Positions 3,323 through 12,157 of a stretch of DNA of 64,000 nucleotides are shown here, piece by piece. The DNA comes from Anaerolineae bacterium. GTDB taxonomy: Bacteria > Chloroflexota > Anaerolineae > UBA3071. The stretch is taken from assembly GCA_029907105.1 (NCBI GenBank), contig JARYMM010000003.1, positions 62,001-126,000 of the forward strand, read 5' to 3'. The notes under the pieces were generated by a model. The model was not told the DNA's origin and made no database searches. It saw only the letters and a program-made list of their open reading frames with translations. The position numbers and the translations under genes were made by a program. Each line of letters starts with the position of its first letter. Position 1 is the first letter of the stretch.

Positions 3323-6300
3323 ATGCGCGGGAGAAACGTGATCTCTAATCCCACCCGCACCAGGCCCTGGCGGCCGCTCCTGATCCTGGCCCTGCACCTC
3401 CTGCTCCTGCTGGTCCTCCTGGCCGCAGGGAGCGGGCTGTGGCTGGGCGAGCGCCGGACAAGGCGCGGCGTGAGCTACGGCCCGCCGCCGGCCCTCACCC
3501 CCGCCATCCACGAGCGGCTGGGCGTCAACGTGGCCCTGGAACGGTACGACGAGGTTGCCCTGGCCGCCGTGCTGGACAACCTGCAGGCAGCCAACCTGCG
3601 CTGGCTGCGGCAGCGTTTCCTCTGGTCGGAGATCGAGCCGCAACGAGGACAGTTCCGGTGGGCCGTCTGGGACCGCATCGTGCAGGCCGTAGCCGGGCGA
3701 GACCTGCACCTCATCGCCGTGCTGGACACCTCGCCCGCCTGGGCGCGGGGCGAAGCCGACGCTGCCAACCCCTTCGCCCCGCCGCACGAGCGGGCCGACT
3801 TCGGGCGCTTCGTCGCTGCCTTCGCCCGCCGCTACAGCGAGCAGGTGGACTTTTACCAGATCTGGGACGAGCCGAACATCGCCCCGCACTGGGGTGCCCG
3901 TCCTGCCGATCCCGCCGATTACCTGGGGCTGCTGCGGGAAGGCTACGTGCAGGTGAAAGCCGCCGACCCCACCGCCTGGGTCGTGCTGGCTGGTCTGGCC
4001 CCCACCGTGGAGAGCGGCGGCGCCAACCTCAGCGACATCGCCTACCTGGATCACCTCTACCGGCTGGGCGCGGCGGAGTGGTTCGACGTCGCCGCGGCCA
4101 AGCCTTACGGCTTCGATGCCCGCCCCGACGACCCGCGGCTGGAGGCGCAGGTGCTGAACTTCGGGCGCACCGCCCTGCTGCGGGAGGTGATGGAAGAACA
4201 TGGCGACGGGCAGACGCCGCTGTGGGCCGTGGAGTTCGGCTGGAACGCACTGCCAGCCGGGTGGACAGGCGCGCCCTCCATCTGGGGTCAGGTGGACGAG
4301 GCGACGCAGGCCGACTACGTCCTTGGGGCCTCCCAACGCGCCCGGCGCGACTGGCCCTGGTTGGAGTTATTGCTCTGGGCCAGCTACCAGCCGGCCGTGT
4401 CCCCCGACGATGCCCACTGGGGGTTTGCCCTGGCCGACGCGCAGGGCCGGCCCCGGCCGGCGCTGGCCGCGCTGCGCCAGGCAGCGGCAGAGGCCACTTC
4501 GCTCCTCCCGCCGGGCGTGCACACGCCGGACCATCCGGCGCTGCGCTACAGCGGTGGCTGGCGGGTCACCGCCGAAGCCGCCGACGTTGGCGCAAGCGGC
4601 GACAGGGTGGAGTTTGACTTCCTGGGCACGCGCCTCGACCTGGAGGTGCAGCGGGGGCCGTACTGGGCCTACCTCACGGTGACCGTGGACGGACAACCGG
4701 CCAATGCGCTGCCGGTGGATACCGACGGCCAGGCTAACCTCATCCTCTATGACCCCCTGGCCGCGCCGCAGCGGGTGACGCTGGCCCGCGGCCTGCAAGA
4801 CACCGTCCATCGCGTGCGCCTCGTCGCCACCGGCGGCTGGGGCCAGTGGGCTTTGCGGCGCGTCGTCGTCAGCCGCGAGCGGAGCGCATGGCCCCTCTGG
4901 CTCCTGGGGGCGCTGGCCGTCCTGGCCCTGCTGACCCTGGGCAACGGCCTGCGCCTGGCCCTTCGGCCCGAGGCACAGGAGAGCCTGCACCGGGCGGCGG
5001 TAGGGATGGAAACTGCCGCGGCGCGCTTCCGCCATCTCGACGAACGGGTGCAGGTGGCCTGCGTCGTCGGGGCAGCGGCGCTGTTCGCCTTCTCCCCCTG
5101 GCTGCCGCTGGACCTGCTCAGCCTGGGCCTGCTGGCCTTGCTCCTGGCCCTGCGGCTCGAGCTGATCCTGCCGCTCATCGCTTTCGCCATCCCCTTCTTC
5201 CTGCGCCCCAAGGCCATCCTGGGTCGCTATTTCTCACACCTGGAAATCCTCACCCTCCTGGGGACAGCGATTTTCGCATGGCAGACTGTGTGGTGGAAGA
5301 ACCGGGAAGCAAGAGGCAAGAAGCAAGAGGCATTTGCATCCTGCATCTTGCATCTTGCATCTTGCTTGGATTTCCCTGTATTGGCTCTTATCGCTGTATC
5401 CGCCCTATCCCTGTTGACCGCTGACAACACCGGCGTCGCCCGGCGGGAGTTCCGCGTGGTGATCGTGGAGGCGGCGCTTGCCTATCTGCTGGTGAGCCGC
5501 CTGCGGCGGGCGGACGGCCGGCCGCTTTCCCTCTGGCCCCTGGCCGACGGACTGGTGCTGGGGGCACTGATGGTAAGCCTGGTGGGCCTCTGGCAGTTGG
5601 TCACGGGGCAGGGGCGGGTGGATGTGGAGGGAGTGTGGCGGGTGCGGGCCTTTTACGGCTCGCCCAACAACCTGGGGCTGTACCTGGACCGCATCGTGCC
5701 ATTGCTGGGCGCAGTGGCCGCCTACGGCCGCACCCGTTGGCGCCGCTGGGCTTATGGCCTCTCGCTGATCCCCATCGGCCTGGCCTGTGTCTTCACCTTC
5801 AGCAAGGGTGCCCTGCTGCTGGGGCTGCCGGCGGCGCTGCTTTTCCTGGGCCTGGCGGGCTCGCTGGCCGGCGGAGGAAGGAAGCGCTGGCGGCCGCTGG
5901 TCGTGGCCCTGGGGCTTCTGCTGCTGGCCGCGCTGGCCATGATCCCGCTCTTCCGCACGGAGCGTTTCGCCGGGTTGCTCGATTTCACACGGGGCACGAG
6001 CTTCATCCGCCTGCAACTGTGGCGCGGGGCGCTGAACATGGCCCTGGATCACCCCTGGCTGGGCGTGGGGCCGGATAACTTCCTCTACGCCTACCGCACC
6101 CGCTACGTGCTGCCTGTGGCCTGGGAGGAGCTGAACCTGAGCCACCCACACAACCTCGTGCTCGACTTCTGGACGCGGCTGGGGCTGCTGGGGCTGGCTG
6201 TGGGCATCTGGCTGATGGTGGCCGGCTTCCGCGCCGGCTGGGCCGCCTGGCGGCGCACAGAGGACGCCGACCGGCGGGCGCTGCTGCTGGGCCTGCTGGC

Positions 6301-6484
6301 CAGCCTGGTGGCTATGCTGGCCCACGGGCTGATTGACAATTCGATTTTTCTGGTGGACTTAGCGTTCGTGTTCATGCTTACCCTGGGCGTTTTTCAGCGC
6401 GAGCGGGGGTCAGGGGTAGGGGTTCAGGAAGGAACAACCCCTGACCCTTACCCCTTCTACCAGGGCAGGGCATCCGAATTCTGA
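3323..6484 (+). CDS. fusion: periplasmic-type glycoside hydrolase + O-antigen ligase-like membrane protein
   Basis: 1053-aa two-part protein. A membrane anchor (about 18-40) is followed by a TIM-barrel glycosidase-like domain (about 60-390). WDEPN (181-185) and VEFGW (303-307) look like the acid/base Glu183 and nucleophile Glu304 of clan GH-A enzymes such as GH39. A beta-rich segment follows (about 400-510). The C-terminal half has many membrane helices and the Wzy_C/O-antigen ligase signature: a large loop with [11 protein letters not shown] and then SHPHN near residue 940. A 61-bp repeat hairpin is inserted in frame (5307-5367, about residues 662-682) and another encodes the extreme C-terminus. 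Likely role: polymerising or ligating a surface glycan, with a fused domain that trims or binds sugar. Substrate unknown. Confidence 0.75.
5307..5367. repeat. word-hairpin repeat inside the ligase gene (GCAAGAG / GCATCTT words)
   Basis: Tandem 7-nt words AAGCAAGAGGCAAGAAGCAAG on the left and GCATCTT repeated three times on the right form a stem of about 26 bp with three mismatches and a TTT-centred loop. The element is in frame and codes for a hydrophilic then Cys/His-containing insert between membrane helices. The same words occur in the element at 49326-49408. Confidence 0.7.
6406..6454. repeat. word-hairpin repeat at gene 3' end (GGGGTCAG words)
   Basis: GGGGTCAGGGGTAGGGGTT (6406-6424) pairs with AACCCCTGACCCTTACCCC (6436-6454) at 16 of 19 positions. 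It lies within the last codons of the ligase fusion gene and encodes its final ~20 residues. Confidence 0.65.
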
Positions 6485-6508: not shown

Positions 6509-7471
6509 ATGCGTGTTCTGATCACCGGCGGGGCCGGCTTCATCGGCTCGCACCTGTGCGATCGCCTTCTGGCCGAAGGGCACGAGGTGATCGCCATGGA
6601 TAATCTGATCACCGGCACGACGGACAACATCGCTCATCTGGCCGGACACCGCCGTTTCCGCTTCATCCTCCACGACGTGACCGAGTATATCTACGTGGAC
6701 GGGCCGCTGGATGCCATCCTGCATCTGGCCTCGCTGCCCAGCCCGGTGGATTATCTGGAGAAGCCGATCCAGACGCTGAAGGTGGGGGCGCTGGGCACGC
6801 ACAAGACGCTGGGGCTGGCCGTGGCCAAGAGGGCGCGCTACCTGCTGGCCTCCACGTCGGAGGTCTACGGCGACCCGCTGGTGCATCCACAGCCGGAGAC
6901 CTACTGGGGCAACGTGAACCCCGTCGGCCCGCGCGGCGTGTACGACGAATCGAAACGCTTCGCCGAAGCCATGACCATGGCCTATCACCGTGCCCATGGC
7001 CTGGATACGCGCATTGCCAGGATCTTTAATACCTATGGCCCGCGCATGCGGCTGGACGATGGCCGGGTGGTGCCCAATTTCGTCAGGCAGGCGTTGTCGG
7101 GCGAACCGCTGACGGTCTATGACAAGGGATCGAGAACCCGTAGCTTCTGCTACATCTCCGATATGGTGGATGGCCTATACCGCCTGCTGCTCTCCGATGA
7201 GGTGTATCCGGTCAACCTGGGCAATCCCCAGGAAATGACCATCCTCGACTTCGCCCACAAGGTGCTGGAGATTTCCGGGAGCTCCTCGCAGGTCGTCTTC
7301 GTGACCCCGGAGGACGAGCGCACCAGGGACGATCCCCACGCCCGCCGGCCGGACATCCGCAAGGCGCGGCAGGTGCTGGGTTGGGAGCCAAAGGTGCCTC
7401 TGGAAGAGGGGTTGCGCTTGACTATTGACTGGTTCCGCCGCCGCCTGACCACAGCAGGCGCAAAAACGTGA
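6509..7471 (+). CDS. UDP-glucuronate decarboxylase-like NAD-dependent SDR
   Basis: Cytoplasmic nucleotide-sugar enzyme of the extended SDR family, 320 aa. It has the Rossmann GGAGFIG (7-13), the catalytic STSE (115-118) and YDESK (Tyr145, Lys149). The stretch [21 protein letters not shown] is characteristic of UDP-glucuronate decarboxylase (UXS), which makes UDP-xylose from UDP-glucuronate. A standard AGGA-type RBS precedes the ATG. It sits directly after the glycan ligase gene, consistent with supplying a sugar for a surface polysaccharide. A dTDP-glucose dehydratase-like activity is less likely given the motif. Confidence 0.85.
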
Positions 7472-8128: not shown

Positions 8129-8187
8129 CTGTGCCAGCAAGTGCCGGCCCGCTTGCCGGCATTCACTCTGTTTCGGGAGGAAACACA

Positions 8188-10431
8188 ATGCATACCTCAA
8201 AATGGTGGACGGCCGGCCTGGTCCTGGTCGTCATCTTGACCCCGCTGATGCTTCTGTTCAGCCCCGCGGCTGAGCAGAGCGTGCAGGGCCTGGCCGTGCT
8301 GGATGACGAGTTGGTTTTGCTGGATGGCAGCGGTCGTATCAAGATAGTGGACACCAATGTCCCCAGCGGTTACGAGCCGGTCAACTGGCAATCGCCCACT
8401 ACGGGTTGGACGAAGGTGACCCTGGGTGATTTCAACGGCGATGGCGATCAGGAGATCCTGGCCACCAAGGGAGGGACGGCCAGGCTCTTCGACCCCGTAG
8501 TGCAACCAGGCTATGCCGAGGTGATCGGGGACTGGGACATCCCCTCGCCCTACGTGTGGTACGACATGGACACGGGGGACATTGACGGCGATGGCCGCGA
8601 CGAGATCGTGCTGCTGCGCACGGATGCCACCGATGGCGTCAAGTCCCGTCTCCTGGCCTACGATGGCGGCACCGCAGGAACAAGCTGGCTCAAGGTCCAG
8701 GAACTGACCTATGGTGCGCTGTGGGATGACGTGGCCCTGGGGGATGTCAACGCCGACGGCAAAGAGGATGTCGGCTTGATCCGCTCCGAGGATAAGCTGT
8801 TGCTCATCTTCAACGCCGCAGCTGGCTGGTCGAAGCTGCATGAGCAGTCCTATGACTTCACCTGGCTCGACCTGGAGATGATCAATGCGGATCAGACCAG
8901 GGGAGTACACGAAGTTGCCCTCTCCCGCAAGGTCCCGCAGGCCTATTTCAACACGGTCCTGGTCTTCTACTGGCAGAGCACCACCTCTACCCTGCAAGAC
9001 CTCTGGGGGGATAAGTTCTACCCCTACTTCAATGACATCGAAGGTGCCGACCTCAACGGCGATGGGGATGACGAGCTCATCATGTACCGGGACACCGCGG
9101 ATGTGGACGTCACCCTGGTTGCCCGCAATCCCGCGGGCGCGACCATGCGCACGTTCGAGCCCACAGGCACCAACAGCCCCCATGGCGGCTGGCTTGACCT
9201 GGAAGCCGGCGACATAGACGGCGACGGCCGAGACGAAGTGATCCTGGTGCGCAGTGACAAGTACCGCATCTACGACCGGCCAGAAGCCAGCGACAGCTTC
9301 AACGACGTGAGCGGCTCCTTCCTGGGCTCCTTTGCCGTGGGCAACGTGGACGGCCAGGGGATTGTGGCAGGGCCAGCTCTGGGCGTGACCCCCACCTCTC
9401 TCTCCTTCTCCTTCACCGGCAGCAACCCTCCTGCCCAGTCGGTGTTCGTGAGCAACGCCGGCATCGGCGGCGAGTTCTCCTGGACGGCCACGGTCACCCA
9501 GGGGGAGGAGTGGCTGCATGTCAGCCCTACCAGCGGCACCACGCCGCGCACCCTTAGCGTGTCCGTAGATGCCACCCTGTTATCCACAGGCACCTACCAG
9601 GGCCGGATTCGGATTGATGCGGCGGCGGGAGTGGCCGGCAGCCCCCGCTATGTGGACGTCACACTGTCCGTGGTCGTCACCCTGCCGCGGCTCGGCGTCG
9701 TCCCCGACACGCTGACCTTCGAGATGGATCAGGGGAAGACCAACCCCCAGCCCAAGCTGGTAGAGGTCAAGAACCTGGGCGGGGGGTCGGCGTTGAACTG
9801 GACGGCGACGGCGGATGTCGGATGGCTGAAGGTCATCCCCACGAGCGGTACCACGCCGACGCCGGTCTACATCGAGGTATACGGCACCGACCTGGTCGCG
9901 GGCACCTACGTGGGGCACGTCGTGTTCGATGCCGGCAGCGTGCTGGGCAGCCCCTTCACCTTAGCGGTGACCCTCATCGTGCGGCCACCGGTGATGCAGG
10001 TCAGCCCCAAGACCTTGCAGTTTATCGCTGCCTGTTCTTCCGCGACGATGTCCAGGTCCGTGACCATCTCGCAGCAGGGCGGAGGCAGCGACATCCAGTG
10101 GATGGCCTTCGCCGTCTTGCCGCCGGCGGGAGGAGCGGAAGCCCTCGAGGCCCTGGCCGCCGACGCCACGCCCGAGGTGACCGCTCAGGGTCTGCTCCTG
10201 GGCGGGGAGCTTTTGGCTCCTGCCGGCTGGGTCACGCTCACACCGGACAACGGCACCACGCCATCGTCCATGACCGTGCGGGCGAACCCCAGCGGGCTCG
10301 GCGCAGGCTGGCACTACGCCACGATCGTCATCGTCGGCTGGCCTGAAAATGTGACCAACCGCGTTCAGGCGGTGGACGTCAGCCTGCTGGTGGCCGATCG
10401 CTGCGTGTACGCGCCACTGGTCAGCAAGTAG
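8188..10431 (+). CDS. secreted FG-GAP/VCBS repeat protein with BACON-like domains
   Basis: Extracellular protein of 747 aa from ATG 8188, which has GGGAGGAAA upstream; the track start at 8131 lies at the promoter. A signal peptide covers about 1-30. Then come at least five FG-GAP/VCBS-type repeats with Ca-binding signatures (DFNGDGDQE, DIDGDGRDE, DVNADGKED, DLNGDGDDE, DIDGDGRDE), likely a beta-propeller. Three BACON/Ig-like modules follow, with recurring W-L-x-V-x-P-T-S-G-T-T-P. It ends RCVYAPLVSK, a short C-terminal motif. No catalytic residues are visible, so a binding or surface role is most likely. Confidence 0.8.
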   Translation: MHTSKWWTAGLVLVVILTPLMLLFSPAAEQSVQGLAVLDDELVLLDGSGRIKIVDTNVPSGYEPVNWQSPTTGWTKVTLGDFNGDGDQEILATKGGTARLFDPVVQPGYAEVIGDWDIPSPYVWYDMDTGDIDGDGRDEIVLLRTDATDGVKSRLLAYDGGTAGTSWLKVQELTYGALWDDVALGDVNADGKEDVGLIRSEDKLLLIFNAAAGWSKLHEQSYDFTWLDLEMINADQTRGVHEVALSRKVPQAYFNTVLVFYWQSTTSTLQDLWGDKFYPYFNDIEGADLNGDGDDELIMYRDTADVDVTLVARNPAGATMRTFEPTGTNSPHGGWLDLEAGDIDGDGRDEVILVRSDKYRIYDRPEASDSFNDVSGSFLGSFAVGNVDGQGIVAGPALGVTPTSLSFSFTGSNPPAQSVFVSNAGIGGEFSWTATVTQGEEWLHVSPTSGTTPRTLSVSVDATLLSTGTYQGRIRIDAAAGVAGSPRYVDVTLSVVVTLPRLGVVPDTLTFEMDQGKTNPQPKLVEVKNLGGGSALNWTATADVGWLKVIPTSGTTPTPVYIEVYGTDLVAGTYVGHVVFDAGSVLGSPFTLAVTLIVRPPVMQVSPKTLQFIAACSSATMSRSVTISQQGGGSDIQWMAFAVLPPAGGAEALEALAADATPEVTAQGLLLGGELLAPAGWVTLTPDNGTTPSSMTVRANPSGLGAGWHYATIVIVGWPENVTNRVQAVDVSLLVADRCVYAPLVSK

Positions 10432-11566: not shown

Positions 11567-12157
11567 ATGATTACCAAACTTGTGCGCCGCTATACTACCT
11601 GGATCCTCGAACCCATCGCCCGCTTCTTCATCCGTCTGGGCCTGTCGCCGAACGACGTCACCATCCTCGGCCTGTTGCTGATCTCCGGCGTGGCCGCGCT
11701 GCTGGCCCTGGGCTACCTGCGCCTGGCCGGCGTCCTGATGCTCATCGGAGCGGGCGCCGACGGTGTGGATGGCACGATGGCGCGGATGCTGGGCCGCAGC
11801 AGCCGCTTCGGTGCTTTCCTGGACTCCACGCTCGACCGCTATTCGGAGGCCGTAACCCTCTTCGGGCTCTTTGTGTACTTCTTGCGCCAGGGCAATCAGG
11901 AAGCCCTGATCCTGCTCTATGTGGCCATCGTGGGCTCACTGATGGTCAGCTACACGCGGGCACGAGCGGAAGGCGTTGGCCTGGAGTGCCAGGAAGGATT
12001 CCTCACCCGCGTGGAGCGTGTCATCGTGCTGATGATCGCCCTGATCGTGGGGCAGGTGCGCATCGGCCTCTGGCTCCTGGCCATCCTCAGCCAGCTCACC
12101 GCCCTGCAGCGCATTTATGTCGTCTGGAAAGCGTCCAAAGCGCAGGAAGCAGCGTAA
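11567..12157 (+). CDS. CDP-alcohol phosphatidyltransferase family protein
   Basis: Integral membrane enzyme (196 aa, about six helices) of phospholipid synthesis that exchanges CMP of a CDP-lipid for an alcohol. The complete family signature D-x2-DG-x2-AR-x8-G-x3-D-x3-D is present (Asp65, Asp68, Gly69, Ala72, Arg73, Gly82, Asp86, Asp90). The acceptor alcohol cannot be read from the sequence; glycerol phosphate or inositol phosphate are options. It has its own promoter and precedes the ECF sigma gene by 37 bp. Confidence 0.88.
   Translation: MITKLVRRYTTWILEPIARFFIRLGLSPNDVTILGLLLISGVAALLALGYLRLAGVLMLIGAGADGVDGTMARMLGRSSRFGAFLDSTLDRYSEAVTLFGLFVYFLRQGNQEALILLYVAIVGSLMVSYTRARAEGVGLECQEGFLTRVERVIVLMIALIVGQVRIGLWLLAILSQLTALQRIYVVWKASKAQEAA

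Follow-up and report, generated by a model that had tools for sequence, protein, structure and literature searches.

Many polysaccharide operons encode a hydrolase directed against their own product, PslG being one example, and the reason for this is an open question. The window analysed here, a stretch of 64,000 nucleotides from an Anaerolineae bacterium (contig JARYMM010000003.1), raises it in a particular form. Such a hydrolase is tied to a glycan-transferring enzyme, and its cutting residues then decay in one large clade. A single ATG-to-stop open reading frame on the forward strand (3323-6484, 1053 amino acids) encodes both parts. What does a hydrolase-like barrel do on the chain of a ligase-like membrane protein, and does it still cut?

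Layout, spread and origin of the fusion

The original prediction placed a GH39/GH-A-like barrel and a Wzy_C/WaaL-type polytopic domain on one chain, which Pfam, phmmer and Foldseek bear out (Table 1).

Table 1. Features of the fusion gene and of its downstream neighbour, in window coordinates.
Feature	Position	Strand	Basis
Fusion gene, 1053 aa: anchor helix, PslG-like GH-A barrel, beta-sandwich, return helix, O-ligase-type GT-C module	3323..6484	+	ORF, Pfam, AlphaFold2
Transmembrane anchor at the N-terminus, residues 16-46, with the N-terminus inside and the barrel outside	3368..3460	+	AlphaFold2 helix, hydropathy 1.20, positive N-terminus
GH-A barrel, residues 62-400	3506..4522	+	phmmer, profile and Foldseek matches to PslG
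Val133 codon, aligned with PslG Tyr114 (-2 sugar contact)	3719..3721	+	alignment
Asp182-Glu183: Glu183, acid/base equivalent (PslG Glu165); Asp182 in place of Asn (PslG Asn164)	3866..3871	+	alignment
Glu304, nucleophile equivalent (PslG Glu276)	4232..4234	+	alignment
Beta-sandwich (jelly-roll-like), residues 405-520	4535..4882	+	beta strands in AlphaFold2 model; weak CE2_N match
Return transmembrane helix, residues 525-546	4895..4960	+	AlphaFold2 model and hydropathy
O-ligase-type (WaaL/GT121-like) polytopic module, residues 574-1030	5042..6412	+	PF04932, AlphaFold2, Foldseek, HMM match to 7tpg
Lys828, WaaL Arg191 equivalent	5804..5806	+	alignment with WaaL
Arg896, WaaL Arg265 equivalent (Und-PP phosphate binding)	6008..6010	+	invariant, 83/83
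His943, WaaL His313 equivalent (proposed acceptor activator)	6149..6151	+	invariant, 83/83
SDR dehydratase/epimerase of nucleotide sugars, following the fusion gene after about 27 bp	6509..7471	+	Pfam; same family after the fusion in many relatives

The N-terminal half yields only sub-threshold Pfam matches. Among PDB sequences, PslG alone matches the barrel with phmmer (2e-17, residues 65-414), and PslG (5bx9) also ranks first when the whole model is compared by Foldseek (1.5e-17). A profile of the orthologues matches solved structures at 3e-31 over the barrel; it also retrieves GH39 beta-xylosidases and, in the other half, the WaaL ligase. The N-terminal domain is assigned as a GH39/PslG-like member of the GH-A barrels, homologous to PslG. 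GH42 or GH35 identities, suggested by weak Pfam and NCBIfam matches, were rejected as these fall below the cut-offs and PslG ranks higher. The CE2_N match of the beta-sandwich (PF17996, 6e-5) is likewise below its cut-off.

The full-length AlphaFold2 model, computed with 39 orthologues as input, has a mean pLDDT of 88.3 and a pTM of 0.72, a value at which the placement of the barrel against the ligase is unreliable. In the topology predicted from the helices of this model, the barrel lies between the anchor and return helices, and the catalytic loop 879-944 is on the same outer side. The prediction thus puts the barrel and the O-antigen-ligase-like domain at the same, outer membrane face. Most short loops rich in lysine and arginine are predicted on the inner side (547-573, 660-682, 725-737, 850-856 and 975-981), but three basic residues are also found in each of two short loops predicted outside, 626-638 and 762-780. 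The predicted cytoplasmic loop around residues 660-682 of the ligase half also harbours an in-frame hairpin of 7-bp repeats (GCAAGAN / NTCTTGC; 5297-5367, arms of 26 nt, 88% complementary). The motif occurs in 56 copies in the host genome, in none in a reversed-sequence control, and is absent from three relatives. It is a dispersed repeat element tolerated within the gene.

The original prediction had called for a search of this domain combination across genomes, and the fusion proved widespread in Chloroflexota, hence not restricted to one assembly. A match was found in 59 of 60 relatives from the same class, mostly as one long frame spanning both halves, and in 254 of 400 genomes across the phylum, where full-length fusions of other groups are 35-43% identical. 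Overall, full-length orthologues are 35-76% identical; since many independent assemblies carry them, an assembly artefact or a private fusion is ruled out. Named relatives are metagenome assemblies of Chloroflexota/Anaerolineae, the nearest being Anaerolineales bacterium UBA3071 (75-76% identical). The systematic survey covered Chloroflexota; beyond this phylum, plasmid records gave matches to part of the barrel only, spanning under a third of the query, and none reached 80% coverage.

In a tree of 132 barrels, one branch (SH-aLRT 87) separates 87 fused barrels, three of them incomplete, from 45 standalone ones. The window protein belongs to a clade of 55 rows with an SH-aLRT of 100, SH-aLRT being the only support measure for these branches. 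In the tree of the ligase half, all fused ligases group together (SH-aLRT 99), separate from the 18 ligases that have no barrel; six duplicate loci bear a wrong clade label in this tree, which does not alter that grouping. Taken together, the two sequence trees are consistent with a fusion that is old and probably single. Two exceptions were noted. Locus L141 (contig C3 of G077) carries an intact standalone-type glycoside hydrolase, one TGA, and then in the same frame a barrel-less ligase of the fused-ligase clade; it is an unfused or split version of the hydrolase-ligase pair. L023/L060 is a broken copy of the fusion.

In relatives, the fusion is found in a glycan operon that also encodes GtrA, a GT4 glycosyltransferase and a second Wzy_C protein, and the SDR gene lies downstream of the fusion. 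The window keeps the SDR gene only: an L25 gene on the opposite strand lies upstream of the fusion, and the G5 gene of the host is elsewhere (contig C56). In 17 loci, a gene for a G5-domain lipoprotein-like protein directly precedes the fusion, mostly with an overlap of a few bases or within 12 bp (L040, L041, L044-L047, L049-L051, L054, L059, L062, L065, L071, L072, L074 and L142). This protein is propeller-like with a lipobox-like start and is a possible partner of the fusion. In other Chloroflexota groups, an intact standalone glycoside hydrolase gene is often found in the directly upstream position.

Several other genes deserve mention. Downstream of the SDR gene, 8131-10431 encodes a protein of 766 aa that contains BACON domains and FG-GAP repeats and also adjoins the fusion in the nearest relative (L039). 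A CDP-alcohol phosphatidyltransferase (11567-12157) is near the archaetidylinositol/phosphatidylinositol phosphate synthases, at 160 bits against a cut-off of 180. Elsewhere in the host genome, a second unusual Wzy_C protein of 1895 aa (L055:686-6370, G000 contig C65) has a ligase domain followed by FG-GAP repeats, ASPIC/UnbV and a match to DUF3604, and another of 1066 aa (L056:1856-5056, G000 contig C54) ends in a long C-terminal TPR array.

The ligase half and its acceptor

The C-terminal half contains Wzy_C (PF04932, 5e-18, residues 815-960). Modelled on its own from 83 sequences, it reaches an AlphaFold2 pLDDT of 92.6 and a pTM of 0.91. Its best Foldseek match is WaaL (7tpg, 2.5e-9, TMt 0.65), followed by SEDS proteins of the same clan, and an HMM comparison matches it to 7tpg at 6e-13. 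It shows the traits which define the GT121 fold, namely the WaaL fold and a long outer loop near the C-terminus, here of 66 residues. The GT121 pair Arg265 and His313 (WaaL numbering) is represented by Arg896 and His943. The position of WaaL Arg191 is more variable, with arginine in 55, lysine in 15 and other residues in 13 of the 83 sequences. A match to the bicarbonate transporter IctB (TIGR00947), which at 69 bits falls far short of the cut-off of 366, was set aside in favour of the WaaL fold and residues. A viral fold search with the ligase half returned no match at E < 0.001.

The original prediction left open whether the module is a polymerase or a ligase. Wzy_C spans both, and one of the two Wzy_C proteins in the operon of relatives could be a polymerase. 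The C-terminal half might accordingly be a Wzy-type polymerase, with the barrel gripping the chain as it grows and so serving processivity or the control of length. Wzy families of the clan (BP-Pol, clan GT-C1) carry Asp or Glu at the acceptor-activating position, however, whereas GT121 O-ligases carry His (PMC10920833), as does the fusion at His943 in all 83 sequences. A ligase is favoured over a polymerase because of this histidine; WaaL is moreover the best fold match. We regard the polymerase as quite unlikely, and the choice narrows to the O-ligase type.

A further question is what serves as the acceptor of an O-ligase in bacteria that lack lipid A. Neither LpxC nor Omp85 was matched in the host genome (assembly about 93% complete), and control genomes gave the expected matches. 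The acceptor of the fusion ligase is therefore probably not lipid A; a protein, a lipid or the wall may serve instead.

Catalytic residues of the barrel

Glu183 of the WDEPN motif and Glu304 of the VEFGW motif align with Glu165 and Glu276 of PslG, so that the window protein has both the acid/base and the nucleophile glutamate. The original prediction had called these motifs intact. As far as the two glutamates are concerned this is accurate, but the surrounding pocket has changed: Asp182 replaces the Asn which precedes the acid/base, and Val133 replaces an Arg. In PslG, Asn164 hydrogen-bonds the -1 sugar and Tyr114 contacts the -2 sugar (PMC11912335). The alignment of residue 133 with Tyr114 is less certain than that of residue 182 with Asn164. 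Not all GH-A enzymes have Asn in front of the acid/base; in GH26, for instance, it is His.

Both changes are features of the clade. Among the 77 barrels outside it, Asn occupies position 182 in 76 and Arg occupies position 133 in all; within it, Asn is found in 1 of 55 sequences (Asp in 51) and Arg in none. The window protein thus already has the two pocket changes of its clade despite retaining both glutamates. The clade has gone further at the glutamates themselves. Glu183 is kept in 45 of 55 members, Glu304 in 20, and the two together in 14, while Pro184, Asn185, Trp190, Gly306 and Trp307 are present in all 55. In an alignment of 39 fusions, positions 183 and 304 both fall below 90% conservation. 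Across the fusions, Glu304 is replaced by Ala, His, Asn, Ser or Arg, and Glu183 by Gln, Asn, Asp or Ala. An alignment artefact was dismissed as the cause of the loss since the motifs were read directly (WASHFGWN and WAVAFGWN are examples). Outside the clade, all 32 fusions have WNEPN and the nucleophile, as do 44 of the 45 standalone hydrolases; the sole catalytic loss there is in the standalone protein of L081. Parsimony on the barrel tree counts seven nucleophile changes, six in the window clade and one in a standalone protein, and four acid/base changes. When the loci were compared by eye, catalytic loss showed no clear relation to the presence of the G5 lipoprotein gene upstream.

Could the barrel of the window protein nonetheless be an active PslG-like endo-glycosidase, coupled to the ligase or polymerase, whose cleavage releases or trims the chain and sets its length? 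It keeps both glutamates, therefore some hydrolysis is possible, and a quarter or so of its clade keeps them as well. Normal Psl production requires the hydrolytic residues of PslG and its location at the inner membrane (PMC6813494), and the fusions of other groups are catalytically complete. Against this, the residues which Asp182 and Val133 replace vary hardly or not at all among intact relatives. Furthermore, L011, L013 and L019, which are close to the window protein and belong to its subclade of six sequences, have Ala at the nucleophile position, and the host encodes a separate, intact PslG-like hydrolase of 447 aa (C92). An active glycosidase is thus possible but, in our view, rather unlikely. 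The working hydrolase of the original prediction is not supported as it stands for this protein, given a clade in which the pocket is altered and a glutamate repeatedly lost while the ligase residues stay invariant. The idea fits the fusions of the other phylum groups better.

Members without the nucleophile suggest another role. Changes to Ala, Ser or Asn at this position are the classic ones of engineered glycosynthases, and in the window clade they are common with the acid/base kept. Such barrels could be natural glycosynthases: Glu183 would act as the base, and a sugar in alpha linkage to a lipid diphosphate would be the donor for new beta-bonds. Members which lack the acid/base (Gln, Asn, Ala or Asp) do not fit this, and neither does the window protein with its two glutamates; the pocket also lacks Asn182 and Arg133. 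We consider it highly improbable. In a broader form, the nucleophile-less barrels of the clade would act with the ligase on the lipid-linked donor, either as a natural glycosynthase or as a chain-length ruler. This remains a long shot. If true, one protein family would span every stage from a trimming enzyme to a non-hydrolytic partner.

Proposed function and known systems

We favour, with about even confidence, an O-ligase to which a glycan-binding domain derived from PslG is tethered, a domain which is degenerating as a hydrolase. The protein would be an outward-facing membrane enzyme of glycan assembly with two modules. Its C-terminal half would take a glycan from a donor of the lipid diphosphate type and transfer it to an acceptor, and two membrane helices would keep the PslG-like barrel and beta-sandwich beside the ligase loop. 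The fusion probably arose once, with a catalytically complete barrel able to release the chain or trim it, the role envisaged for PslG in the case of Psl. In the Anaerolineae clade of the window protein, the barrel subsequently lost Asn182 (to Asp) and Arg133 (to Val), and a catalytic glutamate disappeared many times independently. Hydrolysis by the window protein would accordingly be low or absent.

Within this clade the fold, the tether and the ligase residues outlast the catalytic residues of the barrel, which suggests glycan binding or positioning, and not cutting, as the lasting role of the barrel. Most likely it feeds or measures the chain for the ligase, or presents the acceptor. The natural series of complete, half-lost and lost catalytic sites offers a means to test binding over cutting.

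Hydrolases in exopolysaccharide operons and bimodular O-ligases such as WadA (GT121 + GT25; PMC10920833) are already known. In the literature searched, of which coverage is incomplete, we found no published O-ligase that bears a PslG-like barrel whose catalytic residues have repeatedly been lost. With WaaL (GT121, PDB 7tpg) the fusion has in common the fold, the outer C-terminal loop and the equivalents of Arg265 and His313. It differs by its N-terminal GH39-like barrel and, in the window protein, by Lys in place of Arg191.

WadA provides the precedent of an O-ligase that carries a further carbohydrate-active domain. Its partner is a GT25 glycosyltransferase, whereas the partner here is a glycoside hydrolase barrel; a search for a GT25 domain in the fusion of the window gave no match, which sets it apart from the WadA type.

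The standalone PslG-like hydrolases of Chloroflexota (375-716 aa) have a homologous barrel, often with a beta-sandwich, but form a separate branch from the fused barrels and retain Asn-Glu and the nucleophile in all but one case. Lastly, PslG of Pseudomonas aeruginosa (GH39; PDB 4zn2, 5bx9 and 9g17) is the nearest solved relative in both sequence and fold, and shares the GH-A barrel and beta-sandwich with the fusion. It is membrane-anchored and linked to exopolysaccharide synthesis (PMC6813494), and the fusion barrel is likewise predicted to be membrane-tethered. PslG however stands alone as a protein and has Asn164, whereas the fusion joins its barrel to an O-ligase-type module, with Asp at this position in the window clade and the nucleophile often lost there.
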